From IMG/VR virus record IMGVR_UViG_3300027320_000003, positions 1 through 64,000 of that record: a DNA stretch of 64,000 nucleotides, one strand, 5' to 3'. How positions within the stretch are numbered: position 1 is the stretch's first letter; each line of letters starts with the position of its first letter. Source of the DNA: a virus. The position numbers and the translations under genes are program-made. Shown in pieces: positions 26,406 through 30,694 of this stretch. The notes under the pieces were generated by a model. That model made no database searches. It saw nothing but the letters and a program-made list of their open reading frames with translations, and was not told where the DNA came from.

Positions 26406-26486
26406 GCCGGTGTAATTCAGTGGTAGAATAGCGGTTTTGTAAACCGGATACGAAAGTCGCCGTTTCGATTACGGCCACCGGCTCCA
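26406..26486 (+). tRNA. tRNA-Thr (anticodon TGT), CCA encoded
   Basis: Acceptor GCCGGTG (26406-26412) pairs with CACCGGC (26476-26482); discriminator T and encoded CCA at 26483-26486. D stem ATTC/GAAT, anticodon loop TTTGTAA with TGT at 26438-26440, T loop TTCGATT. Oddities: a G-G mismatch at the base of the anticodon stem and an 11-base variable arm with a small AC-GAAA-GT hairpin. Threonine is assigned from the anticodon. Confidence 0.88.
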
Positions 26487-29005: not shown

Positions 29006-29077
29006 GAGCCTGTAGCATAATGGTAATGCACCGAATTCTAACCTCGGCATATGCGCGTTCAACCCGCGTCAGGCTCT
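29006..29077 (+). tRNA. tRNA with anticodon CTA, amber suppressor
   Basis: Acceptor GAGCCTG (29006-29012) pairs with CAGGCTC (29070-29076), discriminator T, next bases CCT so CCA is not encoded. D stem GCAT/ATGC, anticodon stem CCGA/TCGG with one A-C closing mismatch, seven-base loop TTCTAAC with CTA at 29038-29040, five-base variable loop, T stem GCGCG/CGCGT, T loop TTCAACC. Shifting the loop to read TCT (Arg) destroys the stem. It should pair with UAG. The amino acid cannot be told from sequence alone. Confidence 0.85.
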
Positions 29078-29085
29078 CCTAACTT

Positions 29086-29436
29086 ATGATTGTAACGACC
29101 GGAGAAATGATCCGCATAAGGGACGAGTTGCTGGCCGGTCCGTGCGACGGTTGGAAGAGGTCAACCGCTGATGGTTTTCCAGCGCTTCTCCAGTTTCTAT
29201 GTATAAGACATGAAAGACCGAATGGTAGCATGCTGATTCAATTTCAGCAGTTTATGGATAGTCACATAACAATAGGCACGTACGTGTGGAACATGGCCGA
29301 AGGGTGTTGGAACTCTGGTTCTGAACTGGCGGTAGTGGCAGATGTCGTCGATTACGATTACAGCCTGGTGGTTGACCACGTCTGGTCTACTATTGACCCA
29401 GAACGAGGTGCTAATAACGCTGCTATGGCGGAGTAA
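29086..29436 (+). CDS. Repeat-family protein, single domain, C-terminus AAMAE
   Basis: A 116-residue product starting nine bases after the suppressor tRNA. N-terminal helix (EMIRIRDELL), central strands (SMLIQFQQFMDSHITIGTYV) and end DPERGANNAAMAE. It runs with the next copy (three-base gap). Confidence 0.66.
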   Translation: MIVTTGEMIRIRDELLAGPCDGWKRSTADGFPALLQFLCIRHERPNGSMLIQFQQFMDSHITIGTYVWNMAEGCWNSGSELAVVADVVDYDYSLVVDHVWSTIDPERGANNAAMAE

Positions 29437-29439
29437 CTT

Positions 29440-29793
29440 ATGCCAATTATACCAGATGAGGTTGCCGTACAAAAGGACGTCAGTGCTGTGCTATCGAAGT
29501 TTTTTGGCTTGGCCACAGTATCCCACCACGCCAGTGCACAGACGTGCCTCTGGCATTGCCACCTACCGATGAGCTTGATGTCAGAAAATCGTCTCAAGAT
29601 CTATATCGACCGCGCCGCTAATTTCCATCACGAGGTGTCGATCCTTAGTTGGTACTCTGCCTGGAACCGGTATAGACCAGTTGGATCGTTCGCCTACGAT
29701 TGGCGCACCACCTCACCAGAAGAAGTTGTTATGAAGACACTGGCTATAGTAGATCCGACTCGCGCCGCCGACATGTCCATCCTCGCCGAATAG
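29440..29793 (+). CDS. Repeat-family protein, single domain, C-terminus SILAE
   Basis: A 117-residue product. N-terminal helix, strands RLKIYIDRAANFHHEVSILS, and the end DPTRAADMSILAE at the stop. Read in one operon with the copy before it and the HAD gene after it. Confidence 0.66.
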   Translation: MPIIPDEVAVQKDVSAVLSKFFGLATVSHHASAQTCLWHCHLPMSLMSENRLKIYIDRAANFHHEVSILSWYSAWNRYRPVGSFAYDWRTTSPEEVVMKTLAIVDPTRAADMSILAE

Positions 29794-29811
29794 AGTTCTA
29801 CGAGATACCTT

Positions 29812-30240
29812 ATGATCGATCCATATTCAAGCACCATCGTAGCCTCTAACCGCCTGCGTGAGCAGTACACCAAGACGCCGAAGCTTATTATCGCCGTAGA
29901 TCACGATGACACGGTTTTTGACTTCCATAGGAAGGGCCACATCTACGATAGGGCCATTGGCCTCGTCCGTGAATGCCGTGCCGCTGGTTTCTATGTCGTA
30001 ATCTTTACCGCGTCTCCAGAGCACCGGTACGGCGAGATCTACGAATACTGGCGCAGCTACATTGGAGTTACTCCTGACGGCATTAACCGTAACCCAGTTG
30101 ACCTGCCATACGGTCAAACAGGTAAAATATTCTACAACCTGCTGCTTGACGACCGTGCTGGACTTGGTCAGGCCATGGACATACTGGAAAATCTTTTCGC
30201 TCAAATCGAAGAAAATAAAAACCAACCGGTGTTCTTATAA
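29812..30240 (+). CDS. HAD-superfamily phosphatase
   Basis: A 142-residue enzyme with motif I AVDHDDTVFDF near residue 30 (first Asp as nucleophile), motif II VIFTASPEH near 64, and LLLDDRAGLGQ near 113. Short cap, as in phage 5'-nucleotidase-like HADs. Its TAA is followed after one base by the amber-interrupted PTH2 gene. A paralogue lies at 7259-7747. Substrate unknown. Confidence 0.8.
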   Translation: MIDPYSSTIVASNRLREQYTKTPKLIIAVDHDDTVFDFHRKGHIYDRAIGLVRECRAAGFYVVIFTASPEHRYGEIYEYWRSYIGVTPDGINRNPVDLPYGQTGKIFYNLLLDDRAGLGQAMDILENLFAQIEENKNQPVFL

Positions 30241-30241
30241 C

Positions 30242-30694
30242 ATGCAACACGTTCGACCATAGATCGCAAGAGACCCTGATCCACTCAGACTTTACGCCAT
30301 TGTGCGGTCTGATCTTCCAATGAATTCTGGGAAGGTGGCGTCACAAGCTGGTCACTCATATTTAGACTCCTACCTTAATTGTCTAAAAGATGACCCATAG
30401 ATTGCCGCTGAATATCGTGGCGATTCACATGGCATTAAAGTCTGCCTTGCCGCTCCATCACTAGACCACCTCCTCCTTGCCTATGCACAGGCCCAGAGAC
30501 TTGGACTGCCATGTGCACTCATAACGGACCTTGGGTACACTGTTTTCAACGGAGTCAGTACCATCACAGCTTTAGGCATCGGCCCTTGTAGAAAGGCGCA
30601 GGTGCACACCATAACCAAACGATTCAGTCTATTCACTGAATCAAAAAGAAAGGAAACCCATGACACTAAAAGAATACATCACAGTAACAACTAG
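30242..30694 (+). CDS. pth2: Peptidyl-tRNA hydrolase (PTH2 type) with two in-frame TAG codons
   Basis: From ATG 30242 one frame is open to TAG 30692-30694 except for TAG at 30260-30262 (codon 7) and 30398-30400 (codon 53). It has the PTH2 hallmarks: YAIVRSDLPMNSGKVASQAG (Arg, Lys-Val-Ala-x-Gln, then His), GIKVCLAAPSLDHLL, LGLPCALITDLGYTVF and the ITALGIGP strand. PTH2 frees tRNA from dropped-off peptidyl-tRNA. The second TAG replaces a residue that is often Glu or similar after Asn/Asp-Pro. An amber-reading tRNA lies 1.2 kb upstream. Without suppression there is no product; decay is the alternative. Confidence 0.8.

Follow-up and report, generated by a model that had tools for sequence, protein, structure and literature searches.

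The locus studied here raises the question of why a phage would keep a gene for a peptidyl-tRNA hydrolase (PTH2) that is interrupted by two in-frame TAG codons, and whether a nearby tRNA gene with the anticodon CTA provides the answer. The initial annotation had proposed that PTH2 is made only once this tRNA is present and charged. The virus record comprises 143,750 bp, and the window, which is the whole stretch of DNA that was analysed, covers its first 64 kb; the genes found include those for portal, tail sheath, family A DNA polymerase, topoisomerase and NAMPT.

The CTA tRNA and the interrupted PTH2 frame

The tRNA gene was located by ARAGORN at positions 29006..29079 of the + strand and scored 54.7 bits with the Rfam model RF00005, for which the gathering score is 29. 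ARAGORN and Rfam thus show a tRNA fold whose anticodon would pair with a stop codon, with matched types across the relatives described below, and on this basis it is called a suppressor tRNA. The label tRNA-Pyl that ARAGORN attached to it reflects the CTA anticodon only. A tRNA-Thr gene was also found, at 26406-26486 (ARAGORN; 56.1 bits with the Rfam tRNA model).

The PTH2 frame extends from an ATG to a terminal TAG at 30242..30694 of the + strand, 1.16 kb downstream of the CTA tRNA, and its ATG is one base after the stop codon of the preceding gene (PHROG 1238; 29812..30240, + strand). The pairing of a CTA tRNA with a downstream PTH2-like frame that the initial annotation had described was thus borne out by ARAGORN, Rfam and Pfam. 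It was also correct that TAG at codons 7 (30260..30262, + strand) and 53 (30398..30400, + strand) is all that breaks the frame, as neither a further stop nor a frameshift was found before the terminal TAG (30692..30694, + strand), which is followed by C. Inspection of the sequence upstream of the ATG revealed no obvious Shine-Dalgarno sequence, and no ATG, GTG or TTG was found in the frame from codon 7 to the first strand of the protein fold. Because there is no start before the first strand and because codon 53 lies within the folded domain, initiation at a downstream codon cannot yield a complete enzyme, in line with the initial annotation.

The translated frame matched the Pfam family PF01981 with 83 bits over 23 (E 2e-23), covering profile positions 2-115 of 115. 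An AlphaFold2 model, for which the TAG codons were read as Gln and the alignment included 29 relatives, had a pLDDT of 90.5. The best solved structure found for this model by Foldseek was that of the archaeal PTH2 MJ0051 (2zv3), with a TM-score to the target of 0.93, and the TM-score for human bit1 was 0.87; a profile search matched the MJ0051 PTH2 with an E value of 7.5e-25. The Lys and Asp residues of the family (K31 and D96), which have a role in catalysis, were invariant across 30 aligned sequences. By family profile and predicted fold, the window frame is a genuine PTH2. In the model, codon 7 falls in the disordered N-terminus, and codon 53 opens the second helix; consistent with the initial annotation, the relatives often have a polar residue there (E, Q, D, S, R or N).

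Early stops in the PTH2 genes of related phages

Related loci were collected by profile scans for PTH2, which gave 44 viral loci (identified here by L numbers), as well as two phage-like loci, L156 and L157, from bacterial and archaeal contigs. Two matches of the first scan, L002 and L003, were rejected as false. Among isolate phages, no relatives were obtained by Megablast with 10 kb around the locus or by tblastn with two large proteins of the window, and single-protein scans with the neighbours of the window locus likewise gave no relatives.

Counting one PTH2 gene per record, an early in-frame stop was found in 32 phage PTH2 genes. The arrangement of the window exceeds chance because it recurs in 31 other phage records, and the check proposed in the initial annotation, a search for the TAG positions in related phages, showed the early stop to be conserved across the clade. 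In 30 of the 32 genes the stop comes after only 2-7 sense codons (median 4), and stops at codons 13 and 24 also occur. Many of the early-stop genes in the relatives are preceded by a Shine-Dalgarno sequence, and in most of them the stretch from the stop to the enzyme core contains no usable start. For example, in Sinorhizobium phage Phosso the PTH2 gene lies behind a good Shine-Dalgarno sequence and begins with ATG AAG TAT TAG, and the leader of Agrobacterium phage Atu_ph07 is ATG ATT GGC GAA CAC TTT TGA; the public gene calls of both phages start too late, within the PTH2 core. Two TAG codons are present in the leaders of L122, L124 and L125. The second TAG of the window, which would act as a second gate, also has a counterpart: codon 39 of the PTH2 core in L131, a distant relative, is an internal TAG in the alignment column of window codon 53 (L083/L131).

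Several loci depart from this pattern. The leader of L117 is in another frame, such that a frame change in a run of C would be needed, and this gene was left out of the 32; the PTH2 gene of L140 carries a frameshift. In L115, the intact gated PTH2 is preceded by another copy that is broken and has TAG at codon 10 (L115:5066-5827), and the contig IMGVR_UViG_3300031957_002643 (L151 and L129) contains one stop-gated PTH2 plus one open PTH2 of another branch.

In a maximum-likelihood tree built from 51 PTH2 proteins, all early-stop genes clustered together; the group has 33 rows and support of 92/73 and includes a single open member, L156. Over nine pairs of PTH2 genes the dN/dS values were 0.05-0.16, with the stops retained. 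The PTH2 gene is under purifying selection.

Matching of stop codons and suppressor anticodons

A suppressor tRNA was present in 25 early-stop records, and its anticodon as determined by ARAGORN fits the stop codon in 25/25. The combination is TAG with CTA in 21 records (the window, Phosso, L112, L116, L118, L120, L121, L124, L125, L126, L127, L129, L130, L132, L134, L135, L136, L139, L140, L142 and L146), TGA with TCA in three (L113, L114 and Atu_ph07) and TAA with TTA in one (L137). Shuffling of the labels gave P of about 2e-5 for this match, a value that ignores relatedness and is a guide only. On the tree, TGA arose twice and TAA once; the type of stop changed three times, and the anticodon changed each time too. 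These three independent co-switches of stop and anticodon, as reconstructed from the tree, are the firmest point of the analysis. The proposal that PTH2 synthesis would depend on the phage's own suppressor tRNA has strong comparative support from the 25 matches and the three switches from TAG.

The suppressor tRNA lies on the same strand as PTH2 and within about 4.5 kb of its start in 24 of the 25 records, usually upstream; in L125 it is located 9 bases before the PTH2 start, and the TCA tRNA of Atu_ph07 is about 230 kb from PTH2. The tRNA bodies are highly diverse among the phages, and we therefore conclude that what is kept is the pairing and not a single tRNA lineage. No suppressor tRNA was found in eight early-stop records (L115, L117, L119, L122, L123, L131, L138 and L157), which may be fragments; the tRNA scans were near-complete, with not every tRNA candidate inspected.

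At the control loci that have an open PTH2, 1/24 had a suppressor-like tRNA, and its sequence was odd. Neither of the two observations named beforehand as evidence that would count against the proposal, one of them an intact PTH2 without a CTA tRNA, was found in close relatives. L156 (a Variovorax contig), which is the sole member of the group lacking the stop, also lacks a suppressor tRNA within 6 kb. In XacN1 and in the L088/L150 contig, CTA tRNAs are located away from an open PTH2, which shows that suppressor tRNAs serve other purposes as well.

The base on the 3′ side of the gate stops was A or G in 34/37 cases, compared to 37/80 at terminal TAGs (Fisher p 1.4e-6, which like the matching P value ignores relatedness and serves as a guide only). 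A purine after a stop codon favours suppression over termination. Only 2/32 PTH2 genes end in a stop of the matched type, the window being one of these two.

Proposed mechanism and alternative explanations

Taken together, these comparisons indicate that a dedicated suppressor tRNA very probably gates PTH2 synthesis. Ribosomes would initiate at the PTH2 ATG and reach the stop 2-7 codons further on (in the window, six codons). When the phage tRNA is absent, termination would follow, with the release of a tiny peptide, whereas after the suppressor tRNA has been transcribed, matured and charged the stop would be read and full-length PTH2 made; in the window, the second TAG at codon 53 must be read too. 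The output of PTH2 should then track the ratio of charged suppressor tRNA to release factor. We infer from the sequence comparisons that in the cell the charged suppressor reads the stop, and that only then is PTH2 produced. As for the purpose, we prefer, although we are less sure of this, that the gate links an enzyme of peptidyl-tRNA recycling to the presence and load of the phage tRNA set, which would provide late onset and dose matching.

A possible added layer of control, which would supplement the gate and not replace it, is that the leader of 2-7 codons behaves as a minigene from which a short peptidyl-tRNA drops off, coupling PTH2 output to hydrolase activity or to the supply of release factor. 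Minigene drop-off is established, as is the part that Pth plays in early elongation (PMC10192219 and references there). Such sensing would account for the narrow range of stop positions in 30/32 genes, whereas a plain gate could be anywhere, and the peptidyl-tRNA made by minigenes is the substrate of PTH2. However, sensing alone leaves the matching suppressor tRNA unexplained, an early stop is also simply cheap in that it spares the enzyme sequence, and the stops at codons 13 and 24 and the internal codon 53 are not minigene-like. We regard this addition as rather doubtful, albeit worth keeping in mind. With respect to what the gate is for, timing, dose matching and peptidyl-tRNA sensing fit equally well.

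It is very improbable that the early stop merely closes a small upstream ORF and that PTH2 starts later, by non-AUG or downstream initiation, with the suppressor irrelevant to PTH2. A possible start codon past the stop was seen in five loci: GTG directly follows the TGA in L113 and L114, an ATG is situated just 5′ of the first strand in L139, and L121 and L127 have weak candidates. In addition, a TTG after the stop is plausible in the Pseudomonas phages Astolliot and Milchi, which are outside the early-stop clade. Yet in most of the genes no start codon separates the stop from the core, and the triplet that follows the stop (ATC, GTT, AAC, CTG, GAA or GAC) does not resemble a start. Moreover, downstream initiation leaves the match of stop and anticodon unexplained and cannot account for the TAG at codon 53 of the window or the internal TAG of L131.

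TAG as a terminator and stops in other genes

Another reading is that the whole phage uses a changed code in which TAG specifies an amino acid, as in code 15, and that PTH2 is one of many recoded genes. A CTA tRNA is indeed present, and recoded phages that have CTA suppressors are known (PMC13037316). However, TAG terminates 47/160 ORFs of at least 100 aa in the window record, and it is at or near the expected end of the DNA polymerase, the topoisomerase large subunit and the ligase. A screen of 499 kb of related DNA for early-stop genes yielded 15 candidates other than PTH2, mostly resembling non-coding frames; in a BLAST screen for further genes with an interrupting stop, shadow frames from close pairs drowned out other matches, and only hand-checked cases are reported. 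Genome-wide reassignment of TAG was rejected on these grounds; TAG is an ordinary terminator elsewhere in the genome of the window, and a changed code is very improbable. Because TAG ends so many ORFs, an efficient suppressor would extend many proteins, and suppression by the gate tRNA is bound to be weak or late, or else to depend on a favourable context.

A few other stop-interrupted frames were observed close to PTH2. The gene behind PTH2, which is conserved, contains the motif YHDCGKP and has no Pfam match, has an early TAG in L123:7507-8058 (ATG ACT ATG TAG) and a mid-gene TAG in L157:6347-6949, and it is intact in L127, L129 and L130. A small conserved protein downstream of PTH2 (FHFNKKHLEFPxVPMWVLK) has an in-frame TAG in L139 (L139:6759-6989) only, with no stop there in ten other phages. 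Soon after PTH2 in L121 (L121:7137-7478), a Shine-Dalgarno sequence and ATG TCT TAG are followed by 110 open codons; no homologue of this frame was found among the loci, and it is possibly a further gated gene. Matched stops in neighbours of PTH2 would fit with suppression being active when the region is expressed.

The hexamer CCATAG, which contains both PTH2 TAGs, is over-represented in the window (51 compared to 28.4 expected). The idea of a CCATAG motif or a polishing error was dropped, as the preceding CCA is not conserved in the relatives. That PTH2 is a decaying pseudogene or that the TAGs are sequencing errors, with the tRNA a coincidence, is suggested by two premature stops within one gene of a metagenome record, but it is scarcely credible for the window and is refuted for the whole clade by conservation that includes two isolate records (Phosso and Atu_ph07), by the dN/dS values, by the intact predicted fold and by the matched suppressor.

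A HisRS-like gene in two frames

A HisRS-like gene was found to be split over two frames in Phosso, the L115 and L135 phages, L284, L285, L288, L289 and L292. About the first 28 codons of this catalytic-core gene are in one frame and the remainder is in the +1 frame; the loci are L283:320-420 (Phosso), L286, L287, L284, L285, L288, L289 and L292/L293, about 10-100 bases before position 2001. The shift site is (G/C)TT CA(C/T), usually with TGA directly after (in Phosso, CTT CAT CGA AGC TGA), and a histidine codon is there in each case. More distant HisRS-like homologues are in a single frame. The arrangement resembles programmed +1 frameshifting with a hungry histidine codon as its site, which suggests that output of the putative enzyme senses histidyl-tRNA, and control of translation genes by the state of tRNA looks like a theme in these phages. 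As a separate observation, L006:4394-7888 encodes a family A DNA polymerase with a weak match to a uracil-DNA glycosylase domain and an intein-like segment.

A broader view, which we offer tentatively and as falling short of an even chance, is that of a lock and key, in which a private suppressor tRNA would be the trans-acting key for one gene of translation quality. Stop and anticodon would co-evolve through all three stop codons, the leader of 2-7 codons would add feedback by way of the enzyme's own substrate, and together with the putative HisRS-like +1 frameshift this would form a class of phage tRNA-state switches.

Significance and comparison with known systems

Jumbo phages often carry suppressor tRNAs with targets that were previously unknown, and PTH2 appears to be one conserved target, for which the stop codon and the anticodon are seen to evolve together. 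If true, tRNA-controlled expression of a single gene would be a real natural mechanism, and the annotated starts of some phage PTH2 genes would be truncated. The group includes isolated phages, Phosso (Sinorhizobium) and Atu_ph07, and so the mechanism is testable.

In the open-access literature we found no description of PTH2 gating and none that ties phage suppressor tRNAs to PTH2. The paper on Atu_ph07, a member of the early-stop group, reports a UCA (opal) suppressor tRNA and putative peptidyl-tRNA hydrolases and names no target (PMC6102473), and a paper on a Sinorhizobium jumbo phage reports a CUA tRNA, called Pyl (PMC11242549). Targets of the CUA suppressors of XacN1 were sought and none were found (PMC5852040); because the XacN1 PTH2 is open and on another branch of the tree, its suppressors are there for other reasons.

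The proposed gate resembles the use of code 15 in crAss-like and Lak phages, in that TAG codons within phage genes would be read by a suppressor tRNA that the phage itself encodes. Borges et al. reportedly proposed in 2022 that genome-wide stop recoding regulates phage genes. In contrast to the code 15 phages, the matched stop here still serves for normal termination, interrupts essentially a single gene with a neighbour now and then, is located just past the start codon, and has TGA/TCA and TAA/TTA counterparts. As in pyrrolysine and selenocysteine decoding and in the leaky readthrough of RNA phages, a longer product would arise when an in-frame stop is decoded, either by a dedicated tRNA or at low efficiency; unlike pyrrolysine and selenocysteine, the tRNA bodies are diverse and one type of stop can replace another, and where the stop lies points to an on/off gate and not to the incorporation of a special residue. 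There is also a likeness to the autoregulation of RF2 (prfB) and of minigenes, where an early stop in a gene for a translation factor makes output follow the state of the translation machinery. The PTH2 genes differ from prfB in having an in-frame stop and a suppressor tRNA with no frameshift, and the quantity sensed appears to be the phage tRNA.
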